DNA from: Planctomycetota bacterium
GTDB lineage: Bacteria > Planctomycetota > MHYJ01 > JACPRB01
Length of the DNA stretch: 7,276 nt
Assembly (NCBI GenBank): GCA_016200125.1
Contig: JACQFK010000072.1
Location: forward strand, 1 to 7,276
Direction: 5' to 3'
Shown here: piece after piece, positions 657 to 7,276 of the stretch
How positions within the stretch are numbered: the first letter of the stretch is position 1
Layout: each line of letters starts with the position of its first letter
The notes under the pieces: generated by a model
What the model saw: the letters and a program-made list of their open reading frames with translations, nothing else
The model's database searches: none
Told to the model about the DNA's origin: nothing
Program-made: the position numbers and the translations under genes

Positions 657-1958
657 ATGCCCGATCATTCCAAGCGGGTGTACGAGTCGATCCTCGACCT
701 GCTGTCGAACGTGGACAACCCCACGCCCATCGTGCGCCTGAACCGCGTCGTCCCCTTCAAGCACACGAAGATCTACGCGAAGCTCGAATGGTACAACCCC
801 TTCGGCGCGGTGAAGGACCGCGTGGCCGCGAACCTCGTGCGCGACGCGGAGGAGAAGGGGATCAACATCCAGAATCTCGTCGAGCCCACGTCGGGAAACA
901 CGGGCATGGGCCTGGCGATGATCTCCAACGCGAGGAAGGTCAACTTCACCGCCACGCTCTCGCTGGCGATCCCGGCGGAGAAGCGGGCCTCGCTGCGGGC
1001 CTTCGGGGCGAAGCTCGTGGAGCTCGCCGACGATCTCTGCCCGCTGCCCGGCGCGCCCGAAGGCGCCATGCAGAAGGCCAGCGATCTGGCGAAGCAGCCC
1101 GGATGGCACCAGCTCAACCAGTACAAGAACCCGGCCAATCCGGACGCCCATTTCCGGACCACCGGGCCCGAGGTCTGGCGGCAGACCGACGGTAAAATCA
1201 CCCACTTCGTTGCCGGCCTGGGCACCTGCGGGACGATCACCGGGACCGGACGCTTCCTGAAGTCGAAGAATCCGGGCGTCAAGGTGCTGGGGGTGCATCC
1301 CAGCGAAGGCCATGACATCCCGGGCGTCCGCAGCCTCAAGGCGCTCAAGCTGACCGACTTCTTCCTCCCGAAGGAGTACGACGGCGTCACCGAGATCAGC
1401 AACGAGGAGGCCTACCGCCTGTGCAAGCGGCTCAACCAGGAGGAGAGCATCATCGCCGGGCCGAGCTCCGGCATGGCGCTCGCGGGCGCCTTCAAGCTCG
1501 TTCCCGACGAGCCGGGCGCGATCTGCGTGGTGATGTTTCCCGACAACGCCTTCAAGTACTCGTCGTCCTTCCGGAAGCATCTGCCGGAGCTGTTCCCGCC
1601 CGAGCCGGGACAGGCGCCGCCGCCTCCGCCGCCGTCGGCGTCGGACCTGATCGAGCCCGCCGAGGCCGCGCGGCTCGTGCGGGAGGGCGCTCTGCTGCTG
1701 GACGTGCGGACGCCCGGCGAGTTCGAGGGCGGCCACATCGCGGAGGCCGTCAACATCCCGCTGCAGGCCATCCAGGCGGGGCCCGTCCAGGGTCTTCCCG
1801 CCGACAAGTCGACGCCGATCGTCACCATCTGCGCGTCGGGCAAGCGGTCGATGGCGGCGCTGCAGCTGCTCAAGGCGCAGGGCTACGCGCGGGTGAGCAA
1901 CAGCCGCGGCGGCATGCAGGCCTGGATGATGGAGCGGCAGCCTCTGAAGATCCGCTAG
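657..1958 (+). CDS. CysM-like cysteine synthase fused to a C-terminal rhodanese domain
   Basis: This 433-residue protein is a fold-type II PLP enzyme (about 15-310) joined by a proline-rich linker (314-326) to a rhodanese domain (about 330-427). Family enzymes make cysteine by replacing the leaving group of an activated serine with sulfide. Visible motifs are NPFGAVKDR with the predicted PLP Schiff-base lysine K53, the substrate loop TSGNTG (78-83), the phosphate-binding loop GTCGT (189-193, Cys where glycine is usual) and GPSSG (268-272). QYKNPANPDAH and HFVAGLGT resemble mycobacterial CysM, so O-phosphoserine is a possible donor. R225 of GVRS may match the CysM substrate arginine, which I cannot confirm. 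The rhodanese part has DVRTPGEFEGGH (349-360) and active-site loop CASGKRS with C392. The start is supported by AGGAG at 644-648, eight bases upstream. It converges on selD, with stop codons overlapping. The enzyme class is sure; CysM versus CysK or CBS is less so. Confidence 0.9.
   Translation: MPDHSKRVYESILDLLSNVDNPTPIVRLNRVVPFKHTKIYAKLEWYNPFGAVKDRVAANLVRDAEEKGINIQNLVEPTSGNTGMGLAMISNARKVNFTATLSLAIPAEKRASLRAFGAKLVELADDLCPLPGAPEGAMQKASDLAKQPGWHQLNQYKNPANPDAHFRTTGPEVWRQTDGKITHFVAGLGTCGTITGTGRFLKSKNPGVKVLGVHPSEGHDIPGVRSLKALKLTDFFLPKEYDGVTEISNEEAYRLCKRLNQEESIIAGPSSGMALAGAFKLVPDEPGAICVVMFPDNAFKYSSSFRKHLPELFPPEPGQAPPPPPPSASDLIEPAEAARLVREGALLLDVRTPGEFEGGHIAEAVNIPLQAIQAGPVQGLPADKSTPIVTICASGKRSMAALQLLKAQGYARVSNSRGGMQAWMMERQPLKIR
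1955..1958. other. CTAG holding both stop codons of convergent genes
   Basis: The palindrome CTAG contains the TAG stop of the synthase-rhodanese gene (plus, 1956-1958) and the TAG stop of selD (minus, 1957-1955). The two coding regions therefore overlap by four bases. There is no space between them for an intrinsic terminator, so each transcript must run into the antisense strand of the other gene. Confidence 0.95.
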
Positions 1959-2572
1959 GATCGCACGACCTCGAGGCCGGGCTTGTCGGTCTTGAAGGCC
2001 TCGGCGACGATCCGCGCGTCGGCGACGCCCCGTTCGTGCAGCTTCTTCAGGCAGGCGTCGACGTCCTTCTTCCGGATCCCGAAGAACAGGCCGCCCGAAG
2101 TCTGCGGATCCCACATCAGCGCCTGCTCGGTGGGGGAGAAGCTGCCCTTGAACTCCAGCGAGCCTTCGAGGAGCTTCTTGTTCGCCCCGGTGAGGCCGGT
2201 GGTCCCGCCGGCGTCGATGAGGGCCAGGCTGCGAGGGAAGCGGGGGATCGCGTCGTAGACGAAGCGGAGGCCGAGCTTCGAGGCCTTCGCCAGGCCGAGC
2301 GCGTGGCCGCCGAGGCCGAAGCCGGTGATGTCGGTCGCGCCCCGGGCGTCGAACTCCATCATCGTCTCGCAGGCGACCTTGTTCAGCTCGGCCATCTTGC
2401 GGGCGACGGGCAGAAACTCCTCGGCGGAGACCGTCTGATTGCGGTTGCCCCAGATGTACACGCCGCTTCCGACGGGCTTGGTCAGGATGAAGACGTCGTC
2501 CGGGCGGGCGCCGGAGTTGGGGGTGTAGTGCCGGGGGTCGACGAGGCCGTTCACCGAGAGGCCGTACTTCAT
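1955..2572 (-). CDS. selD: selD, C-terminal segment (AIRS C-terminal domain)
   Basis: This 205-residue frame carries the C-terminal domain of selenophosphate synthetase. It starts inside what is normally continuous SelD sequence: KYGLSVNGLVDP, then GARPDDVFILTKPVGSG, the metal-binding region ATDITGFGLGGHA, and DPQTSGGLFFGI near the C-terminus, all SelD signatures. The codons just before its ATG (IRDDE in this frame, 2587-2573) also fit SelD, so the ATG at 2572 is probably not an original start. It overlaps the TGA ending the N-terminal segment as ATGA, so translational coupling is conceivable. About 38 residues found in complete SelD proteins are missing between the two segments. I read this as the 3' part of a gene broken by deletion or by an assembly error. 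A two-subunit enzyme is a less likely alternative. Confidence 0.85.
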   Translation of the reverse strand: MKYGLSVNGLVDPRHYTPNSGARPDDVFILTKPVGSGVYIWGNRNQTVSAEEFLPVARKMAELNKVACETMMEFDARGATDITGFGLGGHALGLAKASKLGLRFVYDAIPRFPRSLALIDAGGTTGLTGANKKLLEGSLEFKGSFSPTEQALMWDPQTSGGLFFGIRKKDVDACLKKLHERGVADARIVAEAFKTDKPGLEVVRS

Positions 2573-2895
2573 CTCGTCGTCCCTGATTTGAGGACGGTGA
2601 GGGGCCGGCCTCCCATCGCGTACACGTCGCTGATGGAGTTGGCCGCGGCGATCTGCCCGAAGAGGTAGGGGTCCTCCGTGGGCGGGGTGATGAAATCGGC
2701 CGTGACGACCAGGGCCGTGTCCTCGCTCAGTTTGTAGACCGCGGCATCGTCCCCGGTCTCGATGCCCACGAGGAGCTCGGGACTGCGGCGCAGCTGCAGC
2801 TTGCTGAACAGGCCCTGTAAGTCCACCGGACTCAGCTTCCCGGTTCAGCCGCCGGTTTTCGAGAATCCGCGAAGATCGACGTTGCAGGACGACAT
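2569..2895 (-). CDS. selD: selD, N-terminal segment with selenocysteine at residue 17
   Basis: SelD makes selenophosphate from selenide and ATP, the selenium donor for selenocysteine tRNA and selenouridine. The true start is ATG at 2895, with AAGGAG (2907-2902) six bases upstream. An in-frame TGA at 2847-2845 falls exactly at the active-site position: the context is FSKTGG-TGA-TGKLSP, where the family has Cys or Sec followed three residues later by an essential Lys (here K20). Reading TGA as Sec gives continuous SelD: ELLVGIETGDDAAVY (metal ligand D50), TADF (D67) and SISDVYAMGG (D90), matching E. coli D51, D68 and D91. The match ends at RPLTVL. The frame then runs through KSGTTR to TGA at 2571-2569, while the expected continuation lies in another frame. 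A caller ignoring Sec would start at GTG 2826 and lose the catalytic residue. Identity is near certain; activity is doubtful because of the downstream lesion. Confidence 0.88.
2573..2592 (-). other. selD: Deletion/frameshift junction inside selD
   Basis: On the minus strand, the codons for ...PLTVL end with CTC at 2592-2590. Two bases AA follow (2589-2588), and then ATC AGG GAC GAC GAG (2587-2573) restores SelD-like sequence, IRDDE, in a different frame. Against E. coli SelD from memory, 38 residues between MGGKPIMAI and IDAPEP have no counterpart, including the GGHS motif. The missing DNA is then about 112 nt, which is not a multiple of three and explains the frame change. No slippery heptamer is evident, so programmed frameshifting is unlikely, and it could not restore the lost residues. 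Confidence 0.8.
2818..2834 (-). promoter_or_regulatory. Candidate bacterial SECIS hairpin of selD
   Basis: On the minus-strand RNA, a seven-pair stem (UGAGUCC with GGACUUA, one G-U pair) closes a GGU loop. The loop lies 18-20 nt after the UGA. As I recall, this is close to the position of the SelB-binding loop of E. coli fdhF, which also contains GGU. The G-U pair becomes an A-C mismatch on the plus strand, so the fold favours the selD sense RNA. It lies within coding sequence, as bacterial SECIS elements do. A second hairpin (ACAG-GGC-CUGU, 2818-2808) overlaps it by one base and could compete. Confidence 0.65.
2845..2847 (-). other. selD: In-frame TGA read as selenocysteine (Sec17 of SelD)
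   Basis: The TGA replaces the catalytic Cys codon of SelD. It is preceded by a well-placed start with a ribosome binding site and conserved SKTGG, and followed in the same frame by TGK-LSP and the ATP-binding domain. Sec at this position is known in SelD proteins of several bacteria and archaea. Sec use would require selA, selB and selC elsewhere in the genome. Confidence 0.85.
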
Positions 2896-2917
2896 GACCG
2901 GCTCCTTCCGTACACCC

Positions 2918-2977: not shown

Positions 2978-3403
2978 ATGAGCGTCGCGCGTTTCCGGTG
3001 CATGTGCGGCAGCACCCACACGGTCCCCCTTGAGCGGGCGATGGATGCGGTGGGCGTGGCCCACTGGCGCTGCACGGACTGCAAGCGGCGCTTCGTCCTG
3101 GCCTATCAGCCTCCCGACGTGATCACGCCCATCTACCTCGATCCCGGGGTGCGCTCCGTGGAGCCGAGGGAAACCGGCGCCTCCCATCCGGGGGGCACGG
3201 TGAACACGACACCCGTGCCGCCGCCGGCGATCGAATTCAAGTGCCGCTGCGGCGAGAAGATCACGGCCCATTCGTGGATGTACGGCGGGACCGCCGTCTG
3301 CGGCGGCTGCCGCTCGACGCTCTACCTGGCGCTGAAGTACAGCATGAAGCGGAAGATCCACGTCATCGTCCCCGAATACCCCCATACGACGACATCCGCA
3401 TGA
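2978..3403 (+). CDS. Small protein with two zinc-ribbon-like cysteine clusters
   Basis: I do not recognise a named family for this 141-residue protein. It has two similar halves. Each has a C-x-C-G motif (C8/C10 and C89/C91) followed about 20 residues later by a C-x2-C motif (C32/C35 and C108/C111), which is typical of zinc ribbons. The halves are joined by a Pro/Gly/Thr-rich linker (about 54-85). The C-terminal half ends in a basic, hydrophobic segment (YSMKRKIHVIV). There is no signal peptide or membrane segment, so it is probably cytoplasmic. The cysteine pairs could bind one zinc per half; a nucleic-acid or protein-binding role would be a guess. The start at 2978 fits the promoter, with a near-leaderless mRNA. 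Its TGA overlaps the ATG of the parvulin gene (ATGA, 3400-3403), so the two are probably co-transcribed and translationally coupled. Confidence 0.75.
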   Translation: MSVARFRCMCGSTHTVPLERAMDAVGVAHWRCTDCKRRFVLAYQPPDVITPIYLDPGVRSVEPRETGASHPGGTVNTTPVPPPAIEFKCRCGEKITAHSWMYGGTAVCGGCRSTLYLALKYSMKRKIHVIVPEYPHTTTSA

Positions 3404-3994: not shown

Positions 3995-5245
3995 ATGAGC
4001 AACAAGATCTCGAGGCGCGAGTTCGTCAAGGCGGGCTCCGGCACGGCGGCGCTGCTGGCGAGCACCCCGCTGGTGTATGCTGGAGGGCAGGAGCAGACCA
4101 TCTCCGTGGGCCTCATCGGCTGCGGCGGCCGCGGCACCGGCGCCGCCGAGAACTGCCTCGAGTCGTCGCAGAACGTCAAGATCGTCGCCATGGGCGACAT
4201 GTTCAAGGACCGCATCGACGGCAGCCGCCGCAACCTGTCGAAGCGAGACGGCTACAAAGTTTCCGACGACAACGTGTTCGTCGGCTTCGACGCCTACAAG
4301 AGGGTCCTCGACAGCGGCGTCGACATGGTGATCCTGGCGACGCCCCCCGGCTTCCGGCCGATTCATTTCGCCGCGGCCGTCGACGCGGGCAAGCACATCT
4401 TCTTCGAGAAACCGGTCGGCGTGGACCCGACGGGCATCCGCAAGGTCATCGAAGCCGGGAAGAAGGCGAAGGAGAAGAAGCTGGCCGTCGTCACCGGCAC
4501 GCAGCGCCGCCACCAGAAGAACTACCTCGAGACCATCGGCAAGATCCACGAGGGCGCCATCGGCGACATCGTCGCGGCTCGCTGCTACTGGAACGGCGAC
4601 ACGCCCTGGGTCAACAAGCGCCGGCCGGAGTGGAACGACATGGAGTACCAGCTCCGCAACTGGTACCACTATACCTGGCTCTGCGGCGACCACATCGTCG
4701 AACAGCACGTCCACAACCTGGACGTGATGAACTGGGTGCTGAAGTCCCATCCCCTCAGCGCGGTCGCGGTCGGCGGCAAGCAGGTGCGGACGCAGCCCGA
4801 GTACGGCTGCGGCTGGGACCACTTCGGCGTCGACTTCACGTATCCGAACGACGTGCACGTCCTCAGCATGTGCCGCCACTGGCCCAAGAGCCCCGGGAAC
4901 GTCAGCGAGGCGGTCGTGGGGACGAAGGGCAAGAGCGACTGCGCGGGCAACATCACGTTCTACAACGGCGATCCGGCCTGGAAGCCCGCGGGCGGCGGCA
5001 TTAACCCCTACGTGCAGGAGCACAAGGACCTGATCGCCAGCATCCGCAGCGGCAACCTGCTCAACGAGGCCGAGCAGGTCGCCCACAGCACGCTGACGGC
5101 GATCATGGGCCGCGAGGCCGCCTACACGGGCCAGGTCATCAAGTGGGACGAGTTCCTGGCGTCGAACCTCGACCTGACCCCGCCCAAGTACGAGTTCGGC
5201 CCGCTGCCCGAGCCGCCGATCGCGGTTCCCGGCAAGAAGGGCTAG
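3995..5245 (+). CDS. Gfo/Idh/MocA oxidoreductase 1, intact Tat signal
   Basis: This 416-residue protein is an NAD(P)-dependent oxidoreductase of the Gfo/Idh/MocA family, typically acting on sugars or cyclitols; some relatives are NAD-dependent glycosidases. The N-terminus is a Tat signal: SRREFVK with R7-R8, a hydrophobic stretch, and likely cleavage after VYA (A29), so export to the periplasm with bound cofactor is predicted. The Rossmann motif GCGGRG is at 42-47, EKP at 138-140, GTQRRH at 168-173, and the probable catalytic region GDHIVEQHVHNLD at 231-243. The C-terminal part is the usual alpha/beta substrate domain, ending in EFGPLPEPP. The start at 3995 is chosen because GAGGAG (3981-3986) lies eight bases upstream and the Tat motif follows at once; a TTG at 3971 in the same frame would add eight residues before it. 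A strong terminator follows at 5278-5311. The substrate cannot be named from sequence. Confidence 0.9.
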   Translation: MSNKISRREFVKAGSGTAALLASTPLVYAGGQEQTISVGLIGCGGRGTGAAENCLESSQNVKIVAMGDMFKDRIDGSRRNLSKRDGYKVSDDNVFVGFDAYKRVLDSGVDMVILATPPGFRPIHFAAAVDAGKHIFFEKPVGVDPTGIRKVIEAGKKAKEKKLAVVTGTQRRHQKNYLETIGKIHEGAIGDIVAARCYWNGDTPWVNKRRPEWNDMEYQLRNWYHYTWLCGDHIVEQHVHNLDVMNWVLKSHPLSAVAVGGKQVRTQPEYGCGWDHFGVDFTYPNDVHVLSMCRHWPKSPGNVSEAVVGTKGKSDCAGNITFYNGDPAWKPAGGGINPYVQEHKDLIASIRSGNLLNEAEQVAHSTLTAIMGREAAYTGQVIKWDEFLASNLDLTPPKYEFGPLPEPPIAVPGKKG

Positions 5246-5277
5246 TCCCGGGCGCAGTAAAGAGAAACACGGAGCGG

Positions 5278-5311
5278 GGCGTCGGGAGCGATCCCGGCGC
5301 CTCCTTTTTTT
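5278..5311 (+). terminator. Intrinsic terminator after oxidoreductase 1
   Basis: A ten-pair GC-rich stem (5278-5287 with 5292-5301, one G-U pair) is closed by the GNRA tetraloop GCGA. The stem can extend by two further pairs. Three bases after it comes a run of seven T (5305-5311). This is a textbook Rho-independent terminator, 32 bases after the stop codon. Confidence 0.92.
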
Positions 5312-5362
5312 GTCCGGCCACGGTGAAGGGGCGCCGGCTTTGACGTGCGGGAGGACGAAGCG

Positions 5363-6586
5363 ATGAACATCCCGATGGTCTACGCGGGCGGTCAGGAACA
5401 GACCCTCAAAGTCGGCCTCGTCGGCTGCGGCGGCCGCGGCACGGGCGCGGCGGACAACGTGCTGGACTCCTCCGAGAACGTCCAGATCATCGCGCTCGCC
5501 GACATGTTCCCCGACAAGATCGAGAAGACCCGGAAGGTGCTGAAGGCGAAGGAGCACCCCGGCGTCAAGATCCAGGACGACTTCTGCTTTACCGGCTTCG
5601 ACGCCTACAAGAAGATCCTCGACAGCGGCATCGACTACGTCATGCTCGCCCAGCCCCCCGGCTTCCGGCCCCTGCACTTCACGGCCGCGATCGAGGCGGG
5701 CAAGCACGTGTTCTTCGAGAAGCCCGTCGCCGTCGACCCCGTCGGCGTCCGCAAGATCATCGAGATGGGCGAGAAGGCCAAGGAGAAGAAGCTCGGCGTG
5801 ATCCCGGGCACCCAGAGCCGCCACACGCCCCGCATCAAGGAGACCGTCCAGCGCATCCACGACGGCCAGATCGGCGAGATCGTCTCCGGCCGCATCATGT
5901 TCAACACCGGGTACCTCTGGGAGTACCCGCGCAAGGAGGGCATGAGCGACATGGAGTGGCAGATCCGAAACTGGTACTACTTCGACTGGCTCTCGGGCGA
6001 CCACATCGTGGAGCAGCACGTCCACCAGCACGACGCGACCGACTGGGTGATGCAGTCCCATCCGGTGCAGGCGGCGGCGGTGGGCGGGCGCCAGATGCGC
6101 ACCGAGGAGCTCTACGGCAACATCTTCGACCATTTCTGCGTGGACTACGAATACCCGAAGGGCGTCCACGTGATGTCCATGTGCCGGCAGTGGAAGGGCG
6201 TGCCCGGCGAGGTCTGCGCCATCTTCAGCGGGACCAAGGGGACGGCCTACATCCACGGGCCGAAGTCGGGCACGATCACGGGCGAGAAGCCCTGGGAGTT
6301 CAAGCCCGGCCCCAAGGACGTGGGCCCCAACGGCAAGGAGATCAACGGCCAGATCCTGGAGCACCGCGACCTCATCGCGTCGATCCGCGCGGGGACGCCG
6401 CTGAACGAGGCGCGCCGCATCGCCGAGACCTCGCTGACGTCGATCCTCGGCCGCGAGGCCGCCTACACGGGGAAGGTCGTCAAGTACGCGGACCTGATGA
6501 AGTCCACGCTGGACCTCAGCCCCAAGAAATACGAATTCGGCCCCAACGAGGTGATGCCGGTGCGCCGGCCGGGGATCAATTCGTAA
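5363..6586 (+). CDS. Gfo/Idh/MocA oxidoreductase 2, no Tat signal
   Basis: This 407-residue paralogue of the flanking genes is clearly more than half identical to the first copy by eye. It has GCGGRG (21-26), EKP (119-121), GTQSRH (149-154) and GDHIVEQHVHQHD (212-224). It begins MNIPMVYAGGQEQT: the last residues of its neighbours' Tat signals (compare TPLVYAGGQEQT in copy 1) are kept, but the twin-arginine and hydrophobic parts are absent. A stop (TGA, 5324-5326) lies in frame upstream, so no signal is encoded there. ATG 5363 is chosen over GTG 5345 because GGAGG (5350-5354) is eight bases upstream. It is therefore predicted to be cytoplasmic. Only 51 bp separate the terminator from the start, and no convincing promoter is seen. 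It differs from copy 1 in the segment after IGEIVSG and in HQHDATDW versus HNLDVMNW, which suggests another substrate. Confidence 0.88.
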   Translation: MNIPMVYAGGQEQTLKVGLVGCGGRGTGAADNVLDSSENVQIIALADMFPDKIEKTRKVLKAKEHPGVKIQDDFCFTGFDAYKKILDSGIDYVMLAQPPGFRPLHFTAAIEAGKHVFFEKPVAVDPVGVRKIIEMGEKAKEKKLGVIPGTQSRHTPRIKETVQRIHDGQIGEIVSGRIMFNTGYLWEYPRKEGMSDMEWQIRNWYYFDWLSGDHIVEQHVHQHDATDWVMQSHPVQAAAVGGRQMRTEELYGNIFDHFCVDYEYPKGVHVMSMCRQWKGVPGEVCAIFSGTKGTAYIHGPKSGTITGEKPWEFKPGPKDVGPNGKEINGQILEHRDLIASIRAGTPLNEARRIAETSLTSILGREAAYTGKVVKYADLMKSTLDLSPKKYEFGPNEVMPVRRPGINS

Positions 6587-6591
6587 GAGAT

Positions 6592-6620
6592 TTGCGGCGC
6601 CGCGGACGCTGTCGTATACT
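6592..6620 (+). promoter_or_regulatory. Predicted promoter of oxidoreductase 3
   Basis: TTGCGG (6592-6597) and TATACT (6615-6620, five of six to consensus) are 17 bp apart. A start near 6627 leaves about 20 nt of leader containing GAAGGAG (6632-6638), eight bases before the ATG. A perfect 10-bp palindrome, GCGGCGCCGC (6594-6603), overlaps the -35 and spacer and could be an operator. Confidence 0.6.
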
Positions 6621-6646
6621 CTCGGGCGATCGAAGGAGAATCATCC

Positions 6647-7276
6647 ATGTCCCAGCGCATCACGCGACTGAACTTCGTGAAGTCGGGCGGCGCGGCGACG
6701 GCCGCCCTGGCGGCCGGCTCCTGTACGGGCGCCGACGCCTTCCCCCTCGTCCACGCGAAGGGGCAGGAGCAGACCATCAAGATCGGCCTCGTCGGCTGCG
6801 GCGGCCGGGGGACCGGCGCGGCGGAGAACTGCCTGAGCTCCTCTCCGAACGTCCAGCTGATCGCGCTGGGCGACATGTTCCCCGACCGGATCAAGGGGTC
6901 CCAGCGGACGCTGAGCAAGCTCGAGGGCTACAAGGTCGGCCCGAACGACGTCTACACCGGCTGGGACGCCTATAAGAAGGTCGTCGACAGCCCCGTCGAC
7001 CTCGTCCTCTTCGCGACCCCGCCGGGCTTCCGCCCGATCCACATGGCCTACGCGATCGAGCAGGGCAAGAACGTCTTCCTCGAGAAGCCGGTGGCGGTCG
7101 ATCCCGTCGGCGTCCGCAAGGTCCTGGAGATCGGGAAGAAGGCGGCGGCCAAGAAGCTCGCCGTCGTGGCGGGCACGCAGTACCGCCACCAGACCAGCTT
7201 CATGGAGACCATCAAGCGGATCCACGACGGCCAGATCGGCGAGGTCATGGGCGGCCGCGCCTACTACAACGCCGGC
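6647..7276 (+). CDS. Gfo/Idh/MocA oxidoreductase 3, partial, degenerate Tat motif
   Basis: The first 210 codons of a third paralogue run in frame to the right edge. The Rossmann motif GCGGRG is at 50-55, EKP at 146-148 and GTQYRH at 176-181; the catalytic histidine region is outside the window. The N-terminus resembles a Tat signal in layout (polar start, FVK, Ala-rich stretch, possible cleavage after VHA at 37), but TRLNFVK replaces SRREFVK, so the second arginine of the pair is Leu8. Such a change usually abolishes or strongly reduces Tat export, so location is uncertain. GAAGGAG at 6632-6638, eight bases upstream, supports the start. It has its own promoter. It looks closer to copy 1 than to copy 2 in the Q-RHQ and YYN segments. 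An outer Cys26 lies in AAGSC, a poor lipobox, so lipidation is unlikely. Confidence 0.88.
   Translation, partial: MSQRITRLNFVKSGGAATAALAAGSCTGADAFPLVHAKGQEQTIKIGLVGCGGRGTGAAENCLSSSPNVQLIALGDMFPDRIKGSQRTLSKLEGYKVGPNDVYTGWDAYKKVVDSPVDLVLFATPPGFRPIHMAYAIEQGKNVFLEKPVAVDPVGVRKVLEIGKKAAAKKLAVVAGTQYRHQTSFMETIKRIHDGQIGEVMGGRAYYNAG

Follow-up and report, generated by a model that had tools for sequence, protein, structure and literature searches.

The window, by which we mean the whole 7,276-nucleotide stretch of a Planctomycetota contig that was analysed, encodes on its minus strand a SelD with a TGA in frame at its active site. The reading that we prefer, with a probability of about 0.9, is that the gene is an orthologue of the selenocysteine (Sec)-containing SelD of planctomycetes, that UGA codon 17 specifies Sec, and that the copy on this contig has a frame-shifting loss of 109 nt, being either freshly inactivated or mis-assembled. 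The comparative evidence that the TGA at 2847-2845 is the Sec codon is strong, and the assignment is very probably correct. The arrangement of a Sec-SelD as found here is itself ordinary and well known.

The minus-strand reading around the TGA is MSSCNVDLRGFSKTGG-TGA-TGKLSPVDLQGLF, in which FSKTGG-TGA-TGKLSP forms the catalytic Cys/Sec column of SelD (Table 1). The alignment to the NCBIfam selD profile (TIGR00476) begins at residue 9 and crosses the TGA uninterrupted; residues 9-103 match profile positions 3-100, and the C-terminal part matches positions 141-309. The UxxK motif of Sec-containing SelD is present as GG-TGA-TGK when the window is set against TGA- and Cys-containing homologues. 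An open stretch of 16 codons alone means little, but homology makes it more than chance. An earlier note, made from the letters of the window, had described a TGA at the catalytic position of SelD with an ATG 16 codons upstream and a ribosome binding site, and all of these were located (TGA 2847-2845, ATG at 2895, AAGGAG).

Table 1. Features of the selD region in the window.
Feature	Coordinates	Strand	Basis and remarks
Shine-Dalgarno-like AAGGAG	2902..2907	(-)	six bases 5' of the ATG; sequence
Start codon and remainder of the 16 codons preceding the Sec codon (MSSCNVDLRGFSKTGG)	2848..2895	(-)	ATG 2895-2893; similar peptide in L001, L064 and L066
TGA in frame at codon 17 of selD, presumably Sec	2845..2847	(-)	sequence; relatives with TGA at the same codon
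Stretch tested as SECIS	2803..2847	(-)	7-bp hairpin UGAGUCC-GGU-GGACUUA at 2834-2818; energy not unusual
SelD N-terminal part 3' of the Sec codon, with short out-of-frame tail	2569..2844	(-)	tail ends at TGA 2571-2569; TIGR00476
Junction of the deletion (109 nt shorter than in homologues, with a change of frame)	2587..2588	(-)	alignment to L001 and spacer count; placement within a few nt
SelD C-terminal part in shifted frame (DEMKYG...EVVRS), 207 residues, stop TAG	1955..2578	(-)	frame reading; TIGR00476

A scan of genome contigs yielded four relatives, the closest of which is L001 from a Planctomycetota MAG, with 73% identity in the C-terminal part. The three closest relatives with DNA are L001 (genome G001), L064 (G002) and L066 (G005), which are 79, 75 and 73% identical to the window in the N-terminal part and 73, 74 and 63% in the C-terminal part, respectively. 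P0004 is a metagenomic protein closely related to that of the window; with it as query, the best matches among the 23 genomes of the class of G001 were in G001 (74%), G002 (75%) and G005 (65%). Aligning SelD homologues at the catalytic column had been suggested in the earlier note as a check. All of the three close relatives share the TGA codon with the window, reading GG-TGA-A[GA]K[LM]SPLDLQGLF, and Cys occupies the column in more distant homologues. A Cys motif (e.g., KSGGCAAKLSP) was found there in 17 of the 120 homologues listed out of 1769 matched.

Among 59 relative genomes, G001 included, 48 SelD matches were over the cut-off, 38 of them with one TGA (in 37 genomes) and 10 with none. 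The DNA sequence puts the TGA at the column in 25 relative genes and also in L044 and L056, and Cys is at the column in L043 and L058. Seven loci were re-examined at the column and no SelD reading was obtained for two of them (L061 and L062); L048 consists solely of a segment downstream of the column, and these three, together with L003, stand outside the column readings. Several genomes hold two SelD copies. G002 encodes a Sec-SelD (L064, 75% to P0004) alongside a Cys-SelD (L077, 58%), and G012, G019, G036, G041 and G057 each give two SelD matches above the cut-off, of which one contains a TGA and the other lacks it; in G012 and G041 the TGA-less copy was read as Cys. The orthologue in G005 (L066/L108, contig C225) also contains an in-frame TAG in its N-terminal region, in place of a Gln codon of the window and L001; this is either an error in the sequence or a second copy in decay.

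The neighbourhood of selD is partly shared with these relatives. A homologue of the small protein encoded at 2978-3403 is divergent to selD in L001 and G002, and a homologue of the DUF5127-type protein encoded at 3-545 is located beyond selD in G002 (translations compared by eye). Positions 657-1958 of the window encode a cysteine-synthase-like protein with a C-terminal rhodanese domain, which lies tail to tail with selD and overlaps its end by four bases; this fusion is absent from the corresponding place beyond selD in G002. On the other side, positions 3995-7276 hold three successive genes for GFO/IDH/MocA-family oxidoreductases, apparent tandem paralogues with the common stretch GL[IV]GCGGRGTGAA[ED]N. 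A Tat-like start (SRREFVK) is seen in the first, and the third begins in a similar way but lacks the twin Arg.

The genes for Sec insertion were searched in the relatives. SelB was over the cut-off in 38 of the 59 genomes; SelA was so in 18 of 23, and tRNA-Sec was over the Rfam cut-off (RF01852) in 15 of 23. ARAGORN identified 11 of 12 loci, from 11 genomes that include G002 and G005, as tRNA-SeC(TCA) and the other one as tRNA-Cys. Of the three genomes G001, G002 and G005, only G002 has all Sec genes together, encoding selA, selB and tRNA-Sec(TCA), with a SelB match that covers profile positions 1-373 of 581. G005 has SelA and tRNA-Sec and no SelB over the cut-off. G001 encodes SelB and only a fragment of SelA below the cut-off. 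Its best RF01852 match (49 bits, over the cut-off) was rejected as a tRNA-Ser(TGA) according to ARAGORN, and the alignment of a second one (43 bits, below the cut-off) lacks, on our reading, the TCA anticodon loop; a direct pattern search in G001 found no tRNA-Sec either, with Rfam scoring covering 150 of 1027 or 117 of 1027 first-look candidates. These ARAGORN calls of tRNA-Ser for L027 (49 bits) and of tRNA-Cys for L091 (53.2 bits) mean that the Rfam gathering cut-off overcounts tRNA-Sec in the class of G001, and matches near the cut-off were distrusted; those of G007 (49.5 bits) and G021 (49 bits) are over it and fall outside the ARAGORN set.

G002 (L110, contig C60) and G001 (L111, contig C596) each have an FdhA-like (formate-dehydrogenase-like) gene that reads RI-TGA-HGP with the TGA in frame. 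Both score below the cut-off of TIGR01591, which no gene in the three genomes exceeded, and they are probably further selenoproteins of the planctomycete group. Overall the comparison supports the use of selenocysteine in this group. The reading of the TGA as Sec against a Sec-decoding background, as the earlier note had it, is thus backed by the orthologues and by selA, selB and tRNA-Sec in relatives, from which the organism of the window would be expected to possess the Sec machinery as well.

For a SECIS element, the minimum free energy of the UGA plus 42 nt was compared with that of 400 synonymous recodings (window codon usage) in 28 sequences, namely the 25 relative genes, the window, L002 (a Bacteroidota record) and L004 (a Marinimicrobia record). 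No general folding signal was found in this set (mean z -0.31; window z -1.04). The hairpin in the window lies 13-29 bases after the U of the UGA, and its 7-bp helix pairs fully in seven of the 28 sequences (the window, L064, L066 and four others) and not in full in L001. At this fixed offset 123 of 196 cells pair; when the helix is shifted by as many as 6 bases, the count never exceeds 103 of 196. For a second helix, located further on, the figure is 63 of 112 cells, and two of its shifted versions score higher (81 and 71). Neither count amounts to proof of a SECIS, and the hairpin in the window is a plausible SECIS but a statistically insecure one.

An ordinary stop would explain the TGA if SelD started downstream of it, for example at GTG 2826, and did without the active-site residue. 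Many relatives are treated in this way by public gene calls: 54 of 120 listed homologues (P0003-P0122; 1769 matched) start exactly at [MVL]DLQGLF, just 3' of the Sec motif. One of the database proteins, P0041, follows the frame of L001 letter for letter from MSPLDLQ, and the L001 DNA has the TGA just upstream. Starts of this kind imply that the active site has probably been cut off in many database entries, with DNA checked for P0041/L001, so that public gene calls in the planctomycete group often begin SelD after the active site; the earlier claim that gene callers would start downstream and drop the catalytic residue holds in kind. Against an ordinary stop stand the relatives with TGA at the same codon, its position in exactly the Cys/Sec column, the good ribosome site upstream and the Sec machinery in relatives, which together make it very improbable. 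A genome-wide reassignment of TGA to another amino acid is more remote still and was rejected, as no evidence for it was found and the gene at 2978-3403 uses TGA as its normal stop, giving a protein of 141 amino acids against 140 (L001) and 142 (G002) in its homologues.

Decoding as Sec is the reading that we retain. UGA codon 17 would be decoded by SelA, SelB and tRNA-Sec in the planctomycete lineage. Judging from the family, the Sec would sit in a flexible N-terminal loop of SelD and handle selenide, and the rest of the protein would use ATP to form selenophosphate, which serves as donor in the synthesis of further Sec. On this contig, the copy would have suffered its 109-nt frame-shifting loss within the N-terminal AIRS domain. 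The earlier note saw in this an enzyme that depends on its own product, which is indeed the known situation for Sec-SelD and is not new: the presence of Sec in SelD, and hence the self-dependence, has long been known (e.g., PMC1794560, 2006).

The earlier reader overlooked that the frame is broken about 260 bases 3' of the TGA. Frame 1 of SelD runs to MGGRPLTVL and then into the out-of-frame tail, and the remainder of the protein follows in another frame. Alignment with L001 leaves a 109-column gap on the window side. The spacer from GGRP to KYG is 32 nt in the window against 141 nt (47 codons) as the commonest length in homologues, which also gives 109 nt missing. This spacer could be measured in 106 of the 120 C-part homologues listed (1769 matched), with 47 residues in 78 and 48 residues in 28; the remaining 14 did not show both flanking motifs to the search expression and are outside the count. 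The loss corresponds to 36 codons plus one base and includes the GGHT-bearing loop, which helps ATP binding. In an alignment to a Cys homologue, 2yye and 2zau, two SelD sequences of solved structure, retain the GGHT motif. With 109 nt gone, the frame shifted and TIGR00476 positions 101-140 unmatched, the window does not have the architecture of a full-length SelD in one frame.

The missing piece did not turn up elsewhere in the window: tblastn with the P0004 segment gave one weak match of 16 residues (E 0.052) in an oxidoreductase gene, and this single weak match gives no sign that the segment moved within the window. Rough NG86 estimates of dN/dS against L001, L064 and L066, on GC-rich DNA, are about 0.22-0.35 for the N-terminal part and about 0.23-0.60 for the C-terminal part, so that both halves look constrained. 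No further lesion was found across about 290 codons of the window's SelD. Given the constrained halves and the lack of other lesions, the deletion must be recent if it is real. Lacking 36 codons and one base, and with its frame shifted, the gene as written yields no working enzyme; judged from its sequence, this selD copy cannot make one, and with its broken frame it may be under no present selection. The working Sec-SelD that the earlier note implied does therefore not hold for the sequence as given.

If the Sec-SelD reading is correct, the loss is either a real, recent inactivating deletion in a strain that is losing its Sec-SelD, to which we give slightly better than even odds, or an error of metagenome assembly or sequencing that hides an intact Sec-SelD, which we put a little below even; the two are about equally likely. 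In L001 and L066 there is no long repeat at both break points (the longest word common to the two points is 9 nt in L001 and 5 nt in L066), which favours a real event, as there is nothing of this kind to explain a mis-assembly, and a clean internal loss of 109 nt is atypical of base-calling errors. The second, Cys-type SelD in G002 could render a Sec copy dispensable, and the extra in-frame TAG in the G005 orthologue also points towards a real loss. On the other hand, the evidence comes from a single contig of apparently 7276 bases, and both halves are otherwise open and constrained over those 290 or so codons. The allele is unseen elsewhere, as all of the 106 measurable homologues among the 120 listed (1769 matched) retain a spacer of 47-48 residues. 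Nor was a second exact match to the truncated N part found: among the 120 matches listed of 1294, the only one at 100% identity is the window's own P0123, which is on a contig of 7276 bases and so suggests that the window is an entire contig, and the next homologue listed, P0124, continues through the missing stretch (P0124 and P0125 were read out of the other 119). A wider scenario, in which a Sec-decoding planctomycete lineage is in the course of losing its Sec-SelD, with a Cys-SelD paralogue like that of G002 perhaps taking over and the TAG in G005 as a second independent step, seems to us rather unlikely. A broken copy, if real, would bear on how the use of Sec gets lost, and this is the only fresh question raised here.

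Sec-SelD ranks among the most widespread bacterial selenoproteins, and the sources on prior knowledge include PMC4561486 (2015) and PMC13188914 (a 2026 review). The earlier note also remarked that Sec-SelD is known in some lineages, and in 37 of the 59 relatives a SelD match is interrupted by a TGA. In organisms without FdhA, Sec-SelD could help to maintain Sec decoding as a trait, according to PMC1794560 (2006). Full sets of Sec-insertion genes were reported for the planctomycetes P1, P2, G. obscuriglobus and I. pallida in PMC4807772; these are other organisms, and the passages concerned do not describe the gene of the window. Cys-containing SelD (P0097, which matches the solved structures 2yye and 3u0o) has the family and the catalytic column in common with the window, but there Cys replaces Sec and recoding is unnecessary. 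Compared with Sec-containing SelD, the window copy differs in its shifted frame and in an N-terminal AIRS domain that is shorter by 36 codons and one base. Still, it has the same Sec codon column, the UxxK motif and the order of both AIRS domains in common with Sec-containing SelD (TIGR00476), and with the Sec-containing SelD of its planctomycete relatives it also shares neighbouring genes.
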